Assembly: GCA_017620235.1 (NCBI GenBank) | Contig: JAFZQT010000103.1 | Coordinates: 1 to 41,727 of the forward strand | Reading direction: 5' to 3' | DNA length: 41,727 bases | From: Butyrivibrio sp. | Lineage (GTDB): Bacteria; Bacillota; Clostridia; Lachnospirales; Lachnospiraceae | Part shown: piece by piece, positions 34,828-41,727 of the stretch | Position numbering within the stretch: the first letter of the stretch is position 1 | Layout of the letters: each line of letters begins with the position of its first letter | The notes under the pieces: model-generated | Told to the model about the DNA's origin: nothing | The model's input: only the letters and a program-made list of their open reading frames with translations | Database searches by the model: none | Position numbers and translations under genes: made by a program

Positions 34828-34877
34828 CCAACTAAAAATGATAATATGGTATAGTATAAAAGAATAATTTTAGTTGG
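34828..34877. promoter_or_regulatory. Inverted repeat enclosing the lipoprotein promoter
   Basis: CCAACTAAAA (34828-34837) and its exact complement TTTTAGTTGG (34868-34877) are separated by 30 bases that contain TGGTATAGT (34847-34855), an extended -10. The arms sit at about -25 and +10 of the likely start site, which suits a dimeric repressor or looped operator (inference). A hairpin role in ending the upstream small-gene mRNA is less likely with so long a loop. Confidence 0.5.
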
Positions 34878-34894
34878 AAAGGGAAAATGGGGAA

Positions 34895-35422
34895 ATGAAA
34901 AAAAGACATCTTATTGCATTATTGATGGCTTTAGGGATTGTTTTTACCGGTTGCAATTCAAATACTGTAGAAGAAATTAATAATGCTCTTAAAGAGAAAG
35001 AACAACAAGCCGGTACATCTGCTTCAACAGAAGCGATAAGCGAAGAAAGTGCGACCGAAAGCGAGAGTGTATCAGAGAGCACTAGTAGTGCATCAGGTAG
35101 TATAGAGGAATCTACAAATACCGAAAAGCCTTCAGGTACATATGTATATACGTATGTACAGGACTATGTAGATGGCGAAGTCACCTGTGAAGACATATAC
35201 ACTTTTAATGATGACGGTACAGGTACAGCCGAAGGTCAAGATATGGTGCCTATCACATGGGATGATAAATATATTTATATGAATAATGAACCTTATGCAG
35301 AATATAAACTTGAAGGCGATATTTTGAAAGAACATAAACTTAATAGCGATACCTGGACTGACTACAAAAAATCTACAGATGGTAGTACTGACTTGAATGA
35401 AAAAGTTAACGCAACCTTTTGA
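34895..35422 (+). CDS. Ser/Glu-rich lipoprotein of unknown function
   Basis: A 175-residue secreted lipoprotein: MKKRHLIALLMALGIVFTGC is a standard signal with lipobox FTGC. A low-complexity Ser/Thr/Glu spacer (about 40-85) leads to a compact beta-rich domain with YTFNDDGTGTAEGQDMVPITWDDKYIYMNNEPYAEYKLEGD, resembling lipocalin-like or DUF5640-type repeats often found in Lachnospiraceae lipoproteins (uncertain). AAAGGG at 34878-34883 precedes the ATG. The final codons (KVNATF and stop) lie within the 21-bp sequence that recurs at 41519, so the gene end may have been remade by insertion of the downstream island. Confidence 0.85.
   Translation: MKKRHLIALLMALGIVFTGCNSNTVEEINNALKEKEQQAGTSASTEAISEESATESESVSESTSSASGSIEESTNTEKPSGTYVYTYVQDYVDGEVTCEDIYTFNDDGTGTAEGQDMVPITWDDKYIYMNNEPYAEYKLEGDILKEHKLNSDTWTDYKKSTDGSTDLNEKVNATF
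35398..35420 (+). repeat. Repeat site A, left copy of the 21-bp direct repeat (candidate att)
   Basis: Contains GTTAACGCAAC at 35405-35415, followed after 15 bases by TCACGA (35431-35436). Identical over 21 bases to 41519-41539. It supplies the last codons and stop of the lipoprotein gene. Confidence 0.75.
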
Positions 35423-35435
35423 CATGTATATCACG

Positions 35436-35474
35436 AAATGACCTGAAGAAAGTTATCTTTGGGTCATTTTTATT
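35436..35474 (+). terminator. Intrinsic terminator after the lipoprotein gene
   Basis: Stem AAATGACC (35436-35443) with GGTCATTT (35462-35469), an inner AAAG/CTTT stem with loop TTAT, and a T-rich tail. It begins 14 bases after the lipoprotein stop, on the island side of the left repeat. Confidence 0.8.
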
Positions 35475-35517
35475 GATTAAAAATGCCTAAAAATGGGCAA
35501 TTTTACAATATGACATT

Positions 35518-35531
35518 GTTAAGTCCGCAAC
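35518..35531 (+). repeat. Repeat site A', diverged copy of the core
   Basis: GTTAAGTCCGCAAC, the GTTA...CGCAAC core with three inserted bases, followed after 13 bases by TCACGA (35545-35550). Weaker than the other copies and recognised mainly by the shared downstream TCACGA. Confidence 0.4.
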
Positions 35532-35556
35532 TTAAGAAGACGACTCACGATAAGTT

Positions 35557-35575
35557 TGAAAAAGTTATCGCAACC
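35557..35575 (+). repeat. Repeat site B, near-identical copy of site A
   Basis: TGAAAAAGTTATCGCAACC differs from site A at one of 19 positions and is followed after 9 bases from the core by TCACGA (35584-35589). It lies just before the IS30 left end. Confidence 0.7.
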
Positions 35576-35596
35576 CATATGTATCACGATTTATAG

Positions 35597-35622
35597 AATT
35601 CATAGGGGGGATTTCTGCTCAA
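35597..35622 (+). repeat. IS30 left terminal inverted repeat
   Basis: Reads AATTCATAGGGGGG and then ATTTCTGCTCAA; pairs with the complement of 36967-36990 with a two-base gap and a few mismatches. Confidence 0.65.
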
Positions 35623-35643
35623 ATACGTGCTCAATAGTAAAAA

Positions 35644-36954
35644 TTACTTATTCAGAAGCTCTTTTGTGAGATTAACTTCATCAGCGGGAACTTTCTTAAG
35701 ATCAAGAAGTTTCATCAGCCTGTGCATATCTTCGTCATCTTCCGGAACCATCTCATATGGGGAAAGATTATTTAGTCCCGGTCTTTTGGTGCTGTTGATG
35801 TGGTTTACAAGAAGCGTGATATCTTCCTGGTTATAAGGAGCTAAAGAAGTCCCTTTAGGAATGACGTATCGGATGTATTCATGATTTTTTTCAAGGCGTC
35901 CCTTCTGACCGGACTGCATTGGATCACAGAAATAAACGTAAGTCCTCTTCATGCCGTCTAACTCAACTGATTGTTCCAGTTTATTAACGACCTTAAATTC
36001 GCTTCCGTTATCAGTCAGGCAGATTCCGAATAGTCTTGTGAAGCAATCTTTTCCCAATCCTTTTTCAAGGAAATCGAATCGGTCGATAACGGATTCGGCG
36101 GTGCAATCTGGTATTAAAAATACTATCATTACGCTATTTCTGCGCAAAAGCATTGTTAATAGGACTTTTTTCTGGTTTTTCTTTCCTTTAACTGTATCCA
36201 TCTCAAACACATCTTTCTCAGATCTGTTTTCCATAAGTGCTGTGAAGTCAGCGTATGTGCGATTTTGCCTAAATTTTTGCGTCAGGATGCCTGAATTACA
36301 TTTCTTTTTCTTTTTTCTTTTGTAACCCGATTGTCTGCGTAGGTCTATATTTCTAACATCAAGAAGCCCACCATTTATATATATGTATGCGGTGCGGCTC
36401 GTGATTGGAATTTCCTGCTCATGTACGGCGAATATATGAGCAAGTGGTTGTCCCTTCTTTATTCCTGTAGAAAGAATACTGTTTACACTTTTTAATTCTT
36501 CATCAGTAAGATGGATTCCTTCTCTTGAGGTCTTTCTAGTCTCGATTGATTTTTTGTCAGCAATCTTTGCGTCATAAAAGTATCTGTCATCATTGCAGTA
36601 GCGTCTTTTATCACAGCTGTTACAGACATATGGTGGTTTCTCGTAGTCCTTGCATTTTGTACTGTAGTAGTCGCTACAGTACTTATGGCAGTCTTTGATG
36701 CATGAATAACAGTACATGGGACAGGATGCATCCCCGCATACATGTCTTTTGGCGCAACCATTTGCTCCAATGCAATCATTCCCGGCAAAGTAACTTCCCT
36801 GTACAAAGATTCGATGTTTCTTTATTTCTCTTGCAATTGAAGCTACATGGCGATTTAGCAATGTAGCAATTTGTATCAGCGGAAGTTTTCTGGCTACTCC
36901 AATCTCGATAGTTTCCCTGTCATCAAATTTCATCTTGGATATCTTTTCAGACAT
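35644..36954 (-). CDS. IS30-family transposase
   Basis: A 436-residue DDE transposase. The N-terminal helix-turn-helix is KFDDRETIEIGVARKLPLIQIATLLNR plus REIKKHR. A Cys-rich segment (about 61-120, some 14 Cys) with PPYVCNSCDKRRYC follows, as in many IS30 proteins of Firmicutes. The catalytic triad is Asp253 (FEMDTVKGKK), Asp315 (LTDNGSEF) and Glu355 (GRLEKNHEYIR), ending with HINSTKRPGLNNLSPYE. The frame is intact, with GAAGGGGG just before the ATG, so the element may still be active. Confidence 0.93.
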   Translation of the reverse strand: MSEKISKMKFDDRETIEIGVARKLPLIQIATLLNRHVASIAREIKKHRIFVQGSYFAGNDCIGANGCAKRHVCGDASCPMYCYSCIKDCHKYCSDYYSTKCKDYEKPPYVCNSCDKRRYCNDDRYFYDAKIADKKSIETRKTSREGIHLTDEELKSVNSILSTGIKKGQPLAHIFAVHEQEIPITSRTAYIYINGGLLDVRNIDLRRQSGYKRKKKKKCNSGILTQKFRQNRTYADFTALMENRSEKDVFEMDTVKGKKNQKKVLLTMLLRRNSVMIVFLIPDCTAESVIDRFDFLEKGLGKDCFTRLFGICLTDNGSEFKVVNKLEQSVELDGMKRTYVYFCDPMQSGQKGRLEKNHEYIRYVIPKGTSLAPYNQEDITLLVNHINSTKRPGLNNLSPYEMVPEDDEDMHRLMKLLDLKKVPADEVNLTKELLNK

Positions 36955-36966
36955 AATTCCCCCTTC

Positions 36967-36990
36967 TTGAGCAGTTTCCCCATAAGAATT
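36967..36990 (-). repeat. IS30 right terminal inverted repeat
   Basis: On the minus strand AATTCTTATGGGG then AAACTGCTCAA, matching the left end. It overlaps the leader of the transposase gene. Confidence 0.65.
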
Positions 36991-37028
36991 ATTCTAAATG
37001 TTTTTGTTTTAATAACCCTAAAATCAAC

Positions 37029-37057
37029 TTGATATGAGATATGTGAAATGTTATTAT
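37029..37057 (+). promoter_or_regulatory. Promoter of the toxin-immunity operon
   Basis: TTGATA (37029-37034), a 17-base spacer and TATTAT (37052-37057), about 60 bases before the first ATG. An inverted repeat GTGAA (37043-37047) / TTCAC (37070-37074) with inner TTATTA/TAATAA arms overlaps the -10, a plausible operator (inference). Confidence 0.6.
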
Positions 37058-37116
37058 CTTAATAATAAATTCACATTATTTAAGAATTGAATAACCAAGG
37101 GAGCTTTTAAATATAT

Positions 37117-37431
37117 ATGGCTAACGAGAATAGTGTATTTATGGATACTGGCGTATTTACCGGTATTGTAGATGATATAGGCGGCGCTGCGTCTGCCTGT
37201 GTCCTTTCGGATGAACCTCTTGCAAACGTCGATTTTTTGGATGACTCAGACGTTGGCAAAGAACTGCATGTTCTTTTAAAAGAAGCATATAAAATGACAG
37301 AGCTTCATAGAACGGAAACGTCGGAGTCTTTACCGAGAGGGCTTTTAAAGCTTCGTGACAGTATGACTGCTGTGGATGATGCACTAAGTAAGAGTCTTGT
37401 AGTAGAATCGCCGGGAGGAAAGCAAAAGTAA
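37117..37431 (+). CDS. Small helical T7SS-effector partner-like protein
   Basis: A 104-residue protein, first gene of a four-gene operon that ends in a toxin and immunity pair. The C-terminal half (about 45-95) is helical with a pattern of small WXG100-like secretion partners: LHVLLKEAYKMTELHRTETSESLPRGLLKLRDSMTAVDDALSKSL. The N-terminal 40 residues are Gly/Ala/Asp-rich. Position and size match the small partner genes that usually precede LXG toxins (Lap1/YwqI-like); the assignment rests on context, not on a clear motif. It ends two bases before the next ATG. Confidence 0.7.
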   Translation: MANENSVFMDTGVFTGIVDDIGGAASACVLSDEPLANVDFLDDSDVGKELHVLLKEAYKMTELHRTETSESLPRGLLKLRDSMTAVDDALSKSLVVESPGGKQK

Positions 37432-37433
37432 GT

Positions 37434-37793
37434 ATGGTTGATCATGGGAGAATATCGGATCTTAGGCATGAGATAAGAGAGTATGAGGAATACATCTCTG
37501 AACTTGAAGAAGCGTGTGCCTTTATAGACAGAACACGAGTAGAAATGAGAGATGATAATGAAGAACCATTGATGCGTTTTGACATTTCATCCGCCGGAGC
37601 TTGGGAAGGAGTGCTTGAGAACGATGCTGAAAATGAAAAAAGTGAGATTATCTGCGGCATTTCCACAAGTCTGAGTCGGGCTTCAGAATTTATATCAGAT
37701 GCACAAAGAATAATTGAGACGTTGCATGAAAGAATTTCAGATTGTGAAAGAGAGATAGAAAGCCTGGAATCGGCGCAAGATAGTTATTATTGA
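37434..37793 (+). CDS. Coiled-coil T7SS-effector partner-like protein
   Basis: A 119-residue, strongly acidic protein with two long coiled-coil helices (about 6-35 and 75-115, the latter RASEFISDAQRIIETLHERISDCEREIESLESAQ) joined by a short middle segment. This helical-hairpin build, and its place as second small gene before an LXG-like toxin, fit the Lap2/YwqH-type chaperone or targeting partner. No family motif is certain. It is encoded two bases after the preceding stop and 21 bases before the toxin. Confidence 0.7.
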   Translation: MVDHGRISDLRHEIREYEEYISELEEACAFIDRTRVEMRDDNEEPLMRFDISSAGAWEGVLENDAENEKSEIICGISTSLSRASEFISDAQRIIETLHERISDCEREIESLESAQDSYY

Positions 37794-37814
37794 TAAAAGG
37801 TAGAGAAAAAGTAT

Positions 37815-39308
37815 ATGGGGAAAAAATACGACGCACAGAAGATGACCGAACTATGTGATGCTTTGGATTATGCGGTCAAAAGATACACTTCAGAAGCTGC
37901 GATGCTCGAAAACGAGTATGAAAAATATAACAGTAACAACACTTATAGAGGTGAAGCAGCTGATGCTTCAAAAGAGTTTGTATATAAAGGACAGGGAAAA
38001 CTTCTTAAAGAACAGCTCCGAGTTTTGAACAGACTGAATAAAAAGTTTAGGGAAACACAAGATGCATTCAGTTCTTTGGTTGATTCATCGCCAAATGCCA
38101 AGATAGATACAGATGTCATCGAATACAACAAAAGATATCTCGAGCAGCAAAAAGAAAGCTTCGAGGAAAAAGCGTGGCAGATGGAACGTGTAACGCGGGA
38201 AATGGCTGATAAGTTTGAGCGTTTTGGGTTCCTGACAAGGGTAAACTGTGACAGGGCAAGATACGGTTTTGAAAATATGTGCGGTTACAACGGCTTATTA
38301 AATAAAAGCTTAAGGAAGTTTGAGGAATTTGACGAAGAAATGACTGCGCACTTAAAACAAACCGGACTTGAAAGGTATATGTATGATCTTGAGACCGATA
38401 CCAAAGCCACGATGAATGCTCTTGATGGGATGACGGTTTATAACCCGGATGTCAAAAAGATAACTGTGACTCCGGTAGCACAGATGGCTGCCAAGATGAT
38501 GGCTGTAGCTAGTGCCCAATCCTTGGCAAATAAACAAAACAGCTCGAAGATTAAGCTTACAGCATTAAATGCTGCAATGCCTTATGAAGAGCTTAATCAT
38601 GAAGTATTACGCGGAATAGAAACAATTATTTATGATATACTTATGGCAGGCGGATATGCGATTGACCAAATAAAAGAGGTGGCAAAACAAATACCTGCTT
38701 TATTGGCTTTTTGTTTAAGCGATGGTCCTTCGCCGGCATTTGATATAATTTCTATTGGCGTAGTAGCTATTGAGACGATTCTTATAATCATACGCGTATC
38801 AGAATACCTATGGGACAATCATTGCTTAAGAGAATCACGAAAAGACTCAAAATCCGATACAAAAGTTAAAAATAAGGGTTCGTCAAAAGATAAGCAAAAA
38901 GAAAAAGCAAAACAGGATCCACCTTCTAAAGGCGAATCATCTGAAAATCAAGATAGCAAAACAAAGAGCAAGCCAAACTCGGCAAAACTCAGAAGAAATA
39001 TGGTAAATTCAGGAATGCCGGAACCTGATTATCCACATGCAGCTCATCATATAGTTGCAGGTGGCGCCGCTGCAGCTCAGCGTGCAAGAGAAATTTTAGA
39101 AAAGTATAACATAGATATCAATGATCCTAACAACGGAGTTTTTCTCCCAACTGTTAGAGGCGTAAGTGAAGCAACATATCATCGAGCAATGCATACCGCA
39201 GAATACTATAAAAAAGTAGAACTGTTACTCAGAGAAGCAACATCTCGAGAAGATTGTATTGCAATTTTAAGAAGCATAGCTAGAAGACTAATGAATGGGA
39301 ATTTTTAA
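37815..39308 (+). CDS. LXG-like polymorphic toxin with C-terminal AHH nuclease domain
   Basis: A 497-residue modular toxin. The N-terminal 200 residues are all helical and coiled, with YRGEAADASKEFV at 44-56 standing where LXG proteins have their LxG turn; this is the presumed type VII secretion domain. A hydrophobic region at about 295-332 (IPALLAFCLS, then IISIGVVAIETILIIIRV) is followed by a Lys/Ser/Asp-rich linker (about 340-385). The C-terminal 110 residues carry AAHHIVAGG with the AHH motif at 410-412, NNGVFLP and HRAMHTAEYYKKV, the pattern of AHH nucleases of the HNH/endonuclease VII group (PF14412). It therefore probably cleaves nucleic acid in rival cells. An Imm11-type gene follows at once. 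No secretion machinery is in the window. Confidence 0.85.
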   Translation: MGKKYDAQKMTELCDALDYAVKRYTSEAAMLENEYEKYNSNNTYRGEAADASKEFVYKGQGKLLKEQLRVLNRLNKKFRETQDAFSSLVDSSPNAKIDTDVIEYNKRYLEQQKESFEEKAWQMERVTREMADKFERFGFLTRVNCDRARYGFENMCGYNGLLNKSLRKFEEFDEEMTAHLKQTGLERYMYDLETDTKATMNALDGMTVYNPDVKKITVTPVAQMAAKMMAVASAQSLANKQNSSKIKLTALNAAMPYEELNHEVLRGIETIIYDILMAGGYAIDQIKEVAKQIPALLAFCLSDGPSPAFDIISIGVVAIETILIIIRVSEYLWDNHCLRESRKDSKSDTKVKNKGSSKDKQKEKAKQDPPSKGESSENQDSKTKSKPNSAKLRRNMVNSGMPEPDYPHAAHHIVAGGAAAAQRAREILEKYNIDINDPNNGVFLPTVRGVSEATYHRAMHTAEYYKKVELLLREATSREDCIAILRSIARRLMNGNF

Positions 39309-39327
39309 TTGCAGGAGAGTTTAAAGG

Positions 39328-39876
39328 ATGAAGATTTGGAAATTAACTGCTGATGTGAATAATTATGACAGTATTATGGCTGAAGATTCTAATTATGATT
39401 ACACCGAAAATACGCTTGACGGTCAATCAAGGATAATTGGATGGGAACCAGTAAAATTAAGACGTATGTATGGTGATGGATTGCAACTTAGTGATTTTCC
39501 GCATTATTATGGTGATCCTATAATGAGTGAAAAAGCTATCAATATTTTGAAACCTCTTATAAAAGATTCCGTAGAATATTTGCCAATGATATTTGATGAA
39601 AAAAACTATACTATGATTAATGTAATCAAAGTTGTGAATGTGATTGATTACGAAAAATCAGAGTATGAAACTTTTCCTGATGGCAAAAGAATACTAATGT
39701 TTGACAAATATTGCTTTCGTATGTGTGATGAATTACTAGAAAATAATATATTTAAACTGATTGATGAGCCAAGAAGAGCACCTTTTGTTTCAGATCGCTT
39801 TAAAGAATGTGTTGAAGAAAATAATTTGACCGGTTTTGAATTTGAGCTTGTCTGGGATAGCGAAGCAGAAATTTAA
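39328..39876 (+). CDS. Imm11 (DUF1629) family immunity protein
   Basis: A 182-residue acidic cytosolic protein directly after the toxin gene, with AGGAG at 39313-39317 before the ATG. The C-terminal pattern APFVSDRFKECVEENNLTGFEFELVW is characteristic of DUF1629/Imm11 immunity proteins, and GEPI-like YGDPIMSEKAINIL sits mid-protein. It is expected to bind and block the AHH domain encoded upstream. The gene is more A/T-rich than the housekeeping genes. A strong terminator ends the operon. Confidence 0.85.
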   Translation: MKIWKLTADVNNYDSIMAEDSNYDYTENTLDGQSRIIGWEPVKLRRMYGDGLQLSDFPHYYGDPIMSEKAINILKPLIKDSVEYLPMIFDEKNYTMINVIKVVNVIDYEKSEYETFPDGKRILMFDKYCFRMCDELLENNIFKLIDEPRRAPFVSDRFKECVEENNLTGFEFELVWDSEAEI

Positions 39877-39912
39877 TAAGTTTTGCGAGCGTCATATTAA
39901 GCATGTTTTTTT

Positions 39913-39942
39913 AATCGGTGGTTATTTTGACCACCGATTTTT
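39913..39942 (+). terminator. Intrinsic terminator of the toxin-immunity operon
   Basis: A perfect 10-bp stem (AATCGGTGGT 39913-39922 with ACCACCGATT 39930-39939), loop TATTTTG and a run of five T. On the minus strand no T-run follows, so it serves the plus-strand operon. Confidence 0.92.
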
Positions 39943-39965
39943 ACTGTAGTATTATTGTCAGAAAT

Positions 39966-40355
39966 TTATGTAAAGGGTAGTTCTGCATCGATTTTTTCAA
40001 GAAGCGCTTTATCTATAATATAGCCCATTTCATCCGATATCGGCGCTGATTCTGCAGAAAGATCGTCATCCCAGCCATAATAAGCCAAGGCAAATTTTTT
40101 TCGTTCTTTGGGTGTCATTCCTTTTGTATGAGATCTTATGTACTCTTCATCACGCCATACCGTTAGGAATTCAACAGGGATACCACCATCATACCAGCCA
40201 CCGGAATTATTCTCGTAAACACTGTGACCATCCTTTACCCATTCTCGAACAGCGCGTTGCTCCTTTTTGGACATCGGCGTATGCTTTATGTAATCCTTAT
40301 ATTGTTCTTCAAGTAATTTCCTTTTGGCTTCGGGTAGATATCTATTAAACTTCAT
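39966..40355 (-). CDS. 129-residue protein of unknown function
   Basis: A charged soluble protein with no signal or membrane segment. The N-terminal half is basic (RYLPEAKRKLLEEQYKDYIKHTPMSKKEQRAVREWVKDG), followed by an aromatic/Gly patch (NNSGGWYDGGIPVEFLTVWRDEEYI) and an acidic C-terminus. AAAAGGAG lies eight bases before the ATG, so it is a real gene. It is convergent with the toxin-immunity operon and co-directional with the recombinase 68 bases upstream. I do not recognise the family; as the remaining cargo of the island it could be a second antitoxin-like or element-maintenance protein, but nothing in the sequence shows this. Confidence 0.7.
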   Translation of the reverse strand: MKFNRYLPEAKRKLLEEQYKDYIKHTPMSKKEQRAVREWVKDGHSVYENNSGGWYDGGIPVEFLTVWRDEEYIRSHTKGMTPKERKKFALAYYGWDDDLSAESAPISDEMGYIIDKALLEKIDAELPFT

Positions 40356-40410
40356 GAGTGTGCTCCTTTTTATGAGTTTGATATTTCAGCCAGAATCATG
40401 TTATTAGCTA

Positions 40411-40416
40411 ATTATA
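40411..40416 (-). promoter_or_regulatory. Possible -10 for the 129-residue protein gene
   Basis: A perfect TATAAT on the minus strand, 55 bases before the ATG, in the gap after the recombinase gene. No clear -35; read-through from the recombinase gene is an alternative. Confidence 0.3.
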
Positions 40417-40423
40417 TATCAGT

Positions 40424-41479
40424 TTAGGTAGTGGGATTAAAGGAAATACCTTTTTTACCTTCAAACTGCTCCAGATAAGGCAGATAGTACTTTAATAATG
40501 ATTCAGGAGTCATGCCATTGATAGCTGCAGCATTGTACAGATTTTCTGTTTGTTCAAATGAGTTGAATCTGAATGCATTTTTTAGGTCGCGAGGCGTAAT
40601 ACTACGTCCATCACTAAATAGAAGAGTGGAATACTTTTTCAAAACATACTCAAGAGACCTTAATTCAAGCCGTTTCATCTGAGACGAAAGGAACAGTGCA
40701 TTGTCATGACCGTATACTGGAATCATTTTAAGACGATCATTTAAATAGTTGCTCAGTATTTCAGCCATGTACTTTGAAAAATATATTTCATTTGGAAACT
40801 TGCGGGTTTTTATAGCTATTTTATTGTGTTCCAAGTCGATATCGCTAATATCTAATGCAACACATTCTGAAGATTTTATTCCTGTACTCATCATAAGTGC
40901 AATCATAGCTGCATCACGATTTCTTAGTTTTTCTTGACGTTTCCCTGCTTTATTAGGAAGATTTCTTAGTTTTTCTTGACGTTTCCCTGCTTTATTAGGA
41001 AGATGCCCATTTAATACAAAATCAAGCAAATTCAAGTTTTCGATAAAATCAGAACCTTTTCCTGCACCAACAGGAACATGAGGTCTGTTTATTTTTGAAA
41101 GAGGATTATATGGGATAAAATCCATTTGGGCATAGTAATCAAAGAAAGATGAAAGTATGCATATTTTGCGGCGTTCAGTTCTATCAGAGATAACCTTCTT
41201 ACCATTTTTATATGGTAACGTTCTTGTGTTTGCAATATATTCTTCAATTACATCTGTTGTTATCTTCGAAAGATCAGACAATTTCATATTTGGGAATCGA
41301 TCATTATCCTTAAGATAGTCAAAGAAATATGCAATATCAATAGCATAAATGTAGTATGAGCTTGGCTTAAGGATATCTTTTTTATATTTAAAGAATCTTT
41401 TGGCAAACTCTGGCATACGTTCCCGTATATACATTTCAGCTTTGTTATAAACGATTTCATCCTTTGATAATTTATCCAT
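40424..41479 (-). CDS. Tyrosine-recombinase family protein with atypical active site
   Basis: A 351-residue integrase-like protein. The N-terminal SAM-like DNA-binding half includes RKICILSSFFDYYAQMDFIPYNPLSKI; the catalytic-domain scaffold follows with AAMIALMMSTGIKSSECVALDISDIDLEHN. The residues usually essential are changed: the first Arg (normally GLRxSE) is Lys (codon 40874-40876), and the HxLRH box reads PRDLKNA, so His becomes Arg and the second Arg becomes Lys. The Tyr region KYYLPYLEQ remains. A 14-residue segment is duplicated in tandem (LPNKAGKRQEKLRN twice). ATG 41479 is chosen because the protein family start fits; the frame is open to an ATG at 41578, which would encode a hydrophobic leader across the repeat sites. 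No ribosome site is seen. Confidence 0.82.
   Translation of the reverse strand: MDKLSKDEIVYNKAEMYIRERMPEFAKRFFKYKKDILKPSSYYIYAIDIAYFFDYLKDNDRFPNMKLSDLSKITTDVIEEYIANTRTLPYKNGKKVISDRTERRKICILSSFFDYYAQMDFIPYNPLSKINRPHVPVGAGKGSDFIENLNLLDFVLNGHLPNKAGKRQEKLRNLPNKAGKRQEKLRNRDAAMIALMMSTGIKSSECVALDISDIDLEHNKIAIKTRKFPNEIYFSKYMAEILSNYLNDRLKMIPVYGHDNALFLSSQMKRLELRSLEYVLKKYSTLLFSDGRSITPRDLKNAFRFNSFEQTENLYNAAAINGMTPESLLKYYLPYLEQFEGKKGISFNPTT
40919..41002. repeat. Perfect 42-bp tandem duplication inside the recombinase gene
   Basis: Two exact, adjacent 42-bp units (40919-40960 and 40961-41002), each starting ATTTCTTAG and ending TTAGGAAG. The length is a multiple of three, so the frame is kept and 14 residues are doubled. 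Exact identity implies a recent slippage event or a polymorphic site. Confidence 0.95.
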
Positions 41480-41485
41480 AGATAA

Positions 41486-41491
41486 ATTATA
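41486..41491 (-). promoter_or_regulatory. Possible -10 of the recombinase gene, between repeat sites
   Basis: TATAAT on the minus strand ends only six bases before the ATG at 41479, so a transcript from it would be nearly leaderless. A second candidate, TATAGT at 41499-41504 with TTAACT at 41523-41528 as -35 (18-base spacer), would put the -35 inside repeat site D. In either case recombinase expression would be sensitive to proteins bound at the repeats. Confidence 0.35.
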
Positions 41492-41511
41492 GAACGCAAC
41501 TATAATCACGA
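41491..41511 (+). repeat. Repeat site C, partial core with TCACGA
   Basis: AACGCAAC (41493-41500), five bases, then TCACGA (41506-41511). The shortest-spaced member of the family, immediately next to site D. Confidence 0.5.
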
Positions 41512-41515
41512 ACAG

Positions 41516-41540
41516 TGAAAAAGTTAACGCAACCTTTTTG
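41516..41540 (+). repeat. Repeat site D, right copy of the 21-bp direct repeat (candidate att)
   Basis: Identical to the left copy over 41519-41539; it differs only by one extra A and one extra T in the flanking homopolymer runs. The core GTTAACGCAAC is at 41524-41534. It has no TCACGA downstream, unlike sites A, A', B and C. Confidence 0.75.
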
Positions 41541-41560
41541 AGGTATATTAATACACAAAG

Positions 41561-41571
41561 TTGCGATAACA
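41561..41571 (-). repeat. Repeat site E, inverted core copy
   Basis: On the minus strand GTTATCGCAAC, identical to the core of site B. It faces site D across 26 bases, forming an inverted pair like the two half-sites of a recombinase target. Confidence 0.6.
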
Positions 41572-41642
41572 ACTTCATTTTAGGGATGGTAGCGTCAAAT
41601 TTTTAGGTAAATGCAAAATTACATGAAACTATTAGGAATACA

Positions 41643-41671
41643 GAGGTTATTGCAAAATAGCCTCTTTTTTT
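41643..41671 (+). terminator. Intrinsic terminator without a gene in front of it
   Basis: A 9-bp stem with one wobble pair (GAGGTTATT 41643-41651 with AATAGCCTC 41656-41664), loop GCAA and seven T. The nearest plus-strand gene ends at 39876 and has its own terminator, so this one has no obvious client; it may have served a gene interrupted or displaced by the island. Confidence 0.8.
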
Positions 41672-41727
41672 ATGCTGGTTTTACAGTGGTTTTATGCCTA
41701 TTTTTTTATTTTTTGGCATCAAAAATA

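Follow-up and report, generated by a model that had tools for sequence, protein, structure and literature searches.

The 41,727-nt contig JAFZQT010000103.1 of Butyrivibrio sp. (assembly GCA_017620235.1), referred to below as the window, carries near its right end a 6.2-kb transposon combining an IS30-type DDE transposase, a toxin–immunity operon of the LXG-AHH/Imm11 type, and an apparently non-catalytic homologue of the Xer tyrosine recombinases. The transposon probably homes to dif, with the LXG-AHH/Imm11 genes as cargo aboard this copy. Its Butyrivibrio host is a rumen bacterium, and dif is the chromosome-dimer resolution site, where bacteria separate joined chromosomes. The window is the entire contig C127 of the 2.70-Mb assembly (G000; 144 contigs, 86% complete), and the genomes, contigs, and loci compared with it are designated G, C, and L, respectively.

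Insertion next to dif

The right flanks of the related elements in G006 and G050 contain the pattern AACTATTCGCAAAAC....GTTTWACGAATAGTT, which, with up to three mismatches, is present in 33 of 79 genomes of the genus. In 24 of the 33, a hit and an xerS-like match share a contig and are at most 20 kb apart; in the remaining nine it is on a different contig from the xerS-like match, or there is no such match. Its distance from dnaA amounts to 50.5% of the chromosome in G042 (a copy with three mismatches), 49.6% in G060, and about 48% in G054 (a variant palindrome). Because of its closeness to xerS and its location about half a chromosome away from dnaA, the pattern was named dif. Two distant kinds of Xer protein are found at the dif-side locus, one in contig C77 of the window's genome, G049, and L190, and the other in G006 and G059, and the dif arms differ somewhat.

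The end of the target-site duplication (TSD) is separated from the TTCG of dif by 18 nt in G006, G050, and G049a, and by 17 nt in G054 and, when read through C77, in the window; in G059 the distance, measured on the orthologous site of G042, is 18 nt. This spacing is seen at 5 of the 11 readable right ends and, by orthology, in a sixth insertion (G059), and it is the right end that faces dif. The 11 do not include G008, in which the contig reaches no further than the terminus and dif was not identified, or G040 and G105, whose eroded ends lie near dif. Recovery of the right junctions of G008 and G059 through the predicted TSD pattern gave one chance-like match with two mismatches for the former and none for the latter.

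An alternative is that there is no targeting and that insertions near dif survive because this hot spot tolerates them. Gene content does vary in the stretch from the cytidylate kinase gene to dif, but the 17–18-nt spacing and the common orientation of the six insertions, one of them known by orthology, make this explanation very improbable. Even less credible is an element resembling the integrative mobile elements exploiting Xer recombination (IMEX), inserted at dif by the host Xer system. Adjacency to dif and the presence of an Xer-like gene would suit it; however, dif was found beside right ends only, no match to a dif regular expression came up in the window or in the left-end loci L021–L024 and L026, and the 13-bp duplications at the ends are derived from the target.

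Several observations nevertheless weigh against homing to dif. The 17–18-nt spacing is missing at six right ends out of the 11 that could be read; dif lies at 38 and 35 nt in the eroded remnants of G101 and G039, respectively, the right end of G049b abuts a sibling element, no dif was seen at the standard place in G057 and L195, and the dif-like palindrome of L190 is about 300 bp away. The window's own dif is on a separate contig, joined to it by 13-bp and 15-bp duplications and not by continuous sequence, and the window's two flanks agree in only 8 of 13 positions. That the element is mobile is supported by G022, which has the region occupied in G006 without the element, in the order DHH, XerS, carboxypeptidase, dif, and Dak1; the empty site suggested as a check in the sequence-only reading therefore exists at the level of genes, although the intergenic DNA itself differs.

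Limits and movement of the element

The features of the window element and its surroundings are as follows.

34874..35422, + strand: lipoprotein gene with the element inserted in its 3' end; its last codons and stop come from the left end of the element
35378..35390, + strand: left 13-bp TSD, GATGGTAGTACTG; the same 13-mer occurs close to the beginning of C77, a contig of the window's genome
35391..41584, no strand: transposon of 6.2 kb, delimited by the limits of homology with relatives, each terminus within one base
35392..35416, + strand: left terminal inverted repeat (TIR), CTTGAATGAAAAAGTTAACGCAACC, holding most of the left copy of a 21-bp repeat
35557..35579, + strand: internal copy of the end motif, 159 bp inward of the left copy
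35644..36954, − strand: IS30-type DDE transposase, 436 amino acids (NCBIfam transpos_IS30, NF033563, 113.9 bits, cut-off 80)
37117..37431, + strand: small toxin-operon protein, 104 amino acids, an open reading frame (ORF)
37434..37793, + strand: YwqH-like protein, 119 amino acids (PF16888, 35.7 bits, cut-off 33.7)
37815..39308, + strand: protein with LXG and AHH nuclease domains, probable toxin, 497 amino acids (PF04740, 36.3 bits, cut-off 26.5; PF14412, 63.2 bits, cut-off 22.3)
39328..39876, + strand: Imm11 immunity protein, 182 amino acids (PF07791, 38.8 bits, cut-off 22.1)
39966..40355, − strand: putative accessory protein, 129 amino acids, adjoining the Xer homologue; homologues at the same place in relatives
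40424..41479, − strand: Xer homologue, about 351 amino acids, catalytic residues lost (PF00589, 41.4 bits)
41516..41538, + strand: subterminal copy of the end motif, found as a sequence repeat (right copy of the 21-bp repeat)
41560..41583, − strand: right TIR; homology in G006, G008, and G050 stops at 41583–41586
41585..41592, + strand: first 8 bases of the right TSD, GATGGTAG, in register with the left copy and interrupted by a second element, E2
41593..41727, + strand: left end of E2, an inverted repeat with the start of C77; the contig ends inside E2

The sequence-only reading described an island bounded by exact 21-bp direct repeats and carrying its own recombinase. The gene contents it listed, i.e., an IS30-type transposase, an LXG-AHH protein, Imm11, the 129-residue unknown, and a protein of the Phage_integrase fold, agree with those found here. 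The repeat, too, is real and exact, but its right copy lies at 41518–41538, one base off the proposed 41519–41539, and the exact identity spans 23 bp (TGAAAAAGTTAACGCAACCTTTT, 35398–35420 and 41516–41538). Its 15-bp core, with up to two mismatches, has three matches in the window compared with 0.03 expected by chance, and two copies had been overlooked, a diverged direct one at 35557–35579 (83%) and an inverted one at 41560–41577. With up to one mismatch, a search of the 86%-complete assembly yielded no more than the three direct copies.

The repeats do not, however, mark the boundaries, as the left copy falls within the left TIR and the right one is subterminal, with the end of the element 45 bp beyond it; as attachment sites they are ruled out by the limits of homology and by the TSDs. 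A site-specific integrative element, with a tyrosine recombinase acting at these repeats, would account for the exact repeat pair and for the recombinase-fold gene adjoining one copy. It is scarcely plausible, given that the recombinase lacks its catalytic residues, that homology continues past the right repeat, and that the duplications flanking the elements vary from insertion to insertion.

Relatives of the element were sought in 99 genomes, the window's own included. The end motif, with up to one mismatch, was found in eight of them, all from one genus (the match in G020 resembles a chance one), and the right-end motif, with up to three mismatches, in 9 of the 79 genus genomes. The left end, consisting of the end motif, 159 bp, the second motif, and the IS30 gene, is conserved in G006, G008, G049, and G059 (75–77% nucleotide identity), and this recurrence as a unit in four relatives shows that the IS30 gene belongs to the element instead of being a passenger. 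The left TIR is identical in G006, G008, G050, and G059 and has one mismatch in G049, while the DNA upstream of CTTGAATG is different in every relative. The right end with the Xer-like gene recurs in G006, in G008, and twice in G049; G040 has the Xer-like gene with an eroded end, and the G050 contig the right end only. A locus search with a single protein found nothing, whereas an alignment query gave six loci, two of them new (L190 and L195), which supplied two further Xer-homologue genes from named records. Butyrivibrio sp. AE2015, SIG344, SIG348, and RUI266 are the named records among the relatives. With the same ends in different flanks and with different contents, the earlier notion of a discrete mobile element with a toxin–immunity operon holds.

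In G008 a 3608-bp contig extends from terminus to terminus and encodes nothing but the IS30 transposase, an 82-residue ORF, the 129-residue protein, and the Xer homologue; it is the minimal element. The LXG-AHH/Imm11 operon was seen in the window copy only, although the elements of G006, G049b, G050, and G059 are truncated by contig ends.

The residues D253, D315, and E355 of the transposase, invariant in all nine aligned sequences, are read as the DDE triad. Duplications were assessed by comparing the 13 bases before the left terminus with the 13 after the right one, skipping one variable base. All four elements readable on both sides (window/C77, G006, G050, and G049) have exact 13-bp duplications, the sequence of which differs each time; in three of the four (G006, G050, and the window) left and right sides come from separate contigs and were paired by the duplications, and for G006 also by the gene order of G022. 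Plain IS30 genes showed exact 13-bp TSDs and inverted-repeat ends in 9 of 29 loci scanned by a script that sought duplications of this length only, many of the remaining loci being truncated by contig ends. The positive loci come from G011, G012, G028, G033, G103, and contig C31 of the window's genome, with L086 and L162 representing one site, and some plain elements of the genus have similar termini (GATTGAATGAATAGTTAA; CCTTGAGTGAAAAAC). Since the 13-bp duplications are shared with plain IS30 elements, it would be the transposase that cuts and joins, and, its DDE residues being kept, this IS30-type enzyme is most likely what mobilizes the unit. The duplication being of 13 bp and not 2 bp, the enzyme is classed, by protein, in a 13-bp branch and not as a canonical IS30.

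At the window's own site, C77 begins with the end of another element, followed by TTTTAGGGATGGTAGTACTG, 17 nt, the dif palindrome, a XerS-type gene retaining the active-site residues, and a gene for a carboxypeptidase. Beyond the truncated duplication, the right flank of the window resembles the other end of this second element, E2, the two ends forming inverted repeats with a 15-bp duplication (aligned by eye) and TTTTAGGGATGGTAG being present on either side. It looks as if E2 was inserted later, between the window element and dif, splitting the right duplication. Decay, considered at first as the reason for the 8-of-13 agreement, was abandoned once C77 gave the full 13-mer and the insertion of E2 was recognized. 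The lipoprotein, read from the flank joined to C77, ends in KKSTDGSTEG and a stop, and with the element in ...KKSTDGSTDLNEKVNATF and a stop; the insertion swapped its last two codons and stop (EG-stop) for a 10-residue tail. The E2 flank has a weak 32-nt match (E 0.002) to the IS30 element Y of G042; no E2 transposase was seen, and another IS30 of the genome (C31), tried as the E2 body, did not match the flanks. No dif was found within the 143-bp right flank of the window, in which a hairpin at about 41641–41662 is interpreted as a terminator. Tandem arrays at dif, with later elements in or beside an earlier duplication, are also seen in L061, L152, and possibly L195, in addition to window/C77.

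The Xer homologue and the choice of target

The Xer homologue can be assigned to the tyrosine recombinase fold by homology (PF00589, and PDB matches to XerA, XerC-like, XerD, and XerH chains). Its start at 41479 was chosen by the authors, the longest ORF reaching 41578, and a perfect 42-bp tandem duplication (40918–41001) adds 14 in-frame residues to the protein. Compared with the catalytic set R-K-H-R-H/W-Y, it has Lys in place of Arg I and Arg II and neither His, and the Tyr is present. Both His are missing in all eight element-borne homologues, which makes it very unlikely that the island is integrated by this recombinase; Arg I is replaced by Lys in seven (L190 retains Arg), Arg II is retained in five, and Tyr occupies the nucleophile column in seven. 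By comparison, Arg I, His II, and Arg II are intact in all 44 chromosomal Xers from the genus and family; the second His is likewise kept in 43, the remaining sequence having a gap. The tree also included five chromosomal Xers that do not enter these counts, and four of them have R, K, H, R, and H. In the tree the element proteins form a single group (support 100/100) on a long branch. A search for distant Xers at E ≤1e-42 gave matches in 89 of 397 genomes of the family; besides the window itself, the matches listed are at most 34% identical, and R, H, R, and H are conserved in the 19 of them that were aligned. Nonsynonymous (dN) and synonymous (dS) divergence are 0.012 and 0.113, respectively, for the G049b/G040 pair, the two other pairs being saturated in dS, and in this one unsaturated pair the gene appears to be under purifying selection. 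Loss of the catalytic residues together with purifying selection points to a maintained, non-catalytic Xer.

It is proposed that this protein, presumably incapable of recombination, would bind dif or pair there with XerS and so guide the transposase; the chances that it does so seem evenly balanced. A bound Xer that does not cut might mark a target 13 nt beyond the staggered cut of the transposase, and the element would gain a conserved, harmless landing place, one per chromosome.

Alternatively, the transposase itself may read dif, or dif bound by XerS, the dead Xer having only an end-binding, regulatory, or dif-shielding function; this has a substantial chance of being right, somewhat below an even one. 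It is favoured by an observation that counts against a docking role of the Xer homologue: the IS30 elements X and Y of G042 adjoin dif and have no Xer gene. Y lies 20–22 nt from the dif arm on both the chromosome and the 243-kb replicon, with no duplication evident on the latter, and X 19 nt from it on the 243-kb replicon (all by eye). An on-board Xer is therefore not required in general, and host XerS may suffice, in line with what has been suggested for ISAjo2 (PMC10132070). The same 13 + 13 nt geometry is, moreover, found in promoter-side IS30 elements that have no extra protein. On the other hand, the spacing of X and Y differs, their termini being 19–22 nt from the dif arm as opposed to 26–27 nt in the toxin-element family, and their transposases are distant (37% amino acid identity). 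The dead Xer gene also stays open, with the signature of purifying selection in the testable pair, and is located at the dif-facing end. As a side observation, the two kinds of plain IS30 in G042 (L152 and L153) adjoin dif or each other on the chromosome and on the 243-kb replicon.

The promoter-side elements, plain IS30s of 1922 bp with 13-bp TSDs (L085, L161, L162, and L163; G012 and G103), have a −35-like box beginning exactly 13 nt after the duplication at all four distinct sites (promoters recognized by eye) and are apparent promoter hunters directed to a sigma-70-like −35 box. A further IS30 with a 13-bp TSD, L076 of G011, adjoins two palindromes, which we take to resemble LexA boxes.

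A docking role at dif is the proposal favoured here. Its broader form, to which slightly less than an even chance is given, is that an IS30-type transposon domesticated an Xer as a non-cutting dif selector, and that members of the 13-bp-TSD branch insert at a fixed 13 nt from sites occupied by a protein, one lineage using dif and another sigma-70 −35 boxes. The fixed distance from such differing sites would then make the site reader an exchangeable part.

Relation to known systems, cargo, and accessory genes

Transposons seeking a recombinase site, as here, include the res-site hunters of the Tn5053 family, which have a transposase of another family and use serine-resolvase sites. Both dif-hunting insertion sequences and inactivated-recombinase selectors have been published already. 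Among the former are the ISAjo2-type dif/pdif hunters of the IS1202 family, whose transposase has been suggested to contact an Xer protein, XerC (PMC10132070). ISAjo2 shares with the window element a DDE transposase, inverted repeats supplemented by an additional internal binding motif, and a fixed orientation and distance from dif, but it is a 1.5-kb insertion sequence with a 5-bp TSD, located 5 bp from the XerC site, and without further proteins (PMC10132070). The window element, in contrast, has a 13-bp TSD, 17–18 nt to TTCG, an xerS-like gene by dif, a dead Xer, and toxin cargo. In the comparison with an IS30 model its transposase scores as IS30.

The precedent for the favoured role is TnsF of the Tn7-like Tn6022, an inactivated tyrosine recombinase that selects the target (PMC10293859). 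What the two have in common is an inactivated tyrosine recombinase on a DDE transposon; TnsF, however, acts together with TniQ and TnsABC, carries zinc fingers at its N-terminus, and has comM, not dif, as its target (PMC10293859). Such partner genes are absent here; TniQ had no match among the window element proteins, and the 3.6-kb element of G008 has room for four ORFs only, none of the TniQ or zinc-finger kind by size and comparison. The IS30 of E. coli, of the same transposase family, prefers nearly palindromic hot spots and its own inverted repeats, a preference that fits the tandem arrays; it is a simple insertion sequence making a 2-bp duplication, compared with 13 bp here (PMC9333248). 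No IS30-type transposon at dif that combines a dead Xer of its own with toxin cargo came up among the open-access papers searched. Such an element would deliver toxin–immunity cargo to a once-per-chromosome landing site present in nearly all bacteria. It is a candidate, outside Tn7, for a dead tyrosine recombinase turned target selector, and it makes testable how simple DDE transposases choose protein-marked sites.

Within the cargo operon the YwqH-like protein is probably the LXG partner, and the 104-residue protein had no match in family searches, padloc and phrogs included. Padloc run on five window proteins, and phrogs on the two unknown ones, returned nothing.

The contigs C45 and C46 of G008 and C7 and C40 of G050 stop about 76–77 bp beyond the element termini, as at an assembly fork, which could reflect several copies, circles, or mixed occupancy. 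It is also worth noting that homologues of the 129-residue protein (26–28% amino acid identity) occupy the same position in G006, G008, and L190, and that others lie beside a Mutator-family transposase gene (L097) and an IS21-type istB gene (L101); from its neighbours, this protein appears to be an accessory protein common to unrelated transposons.

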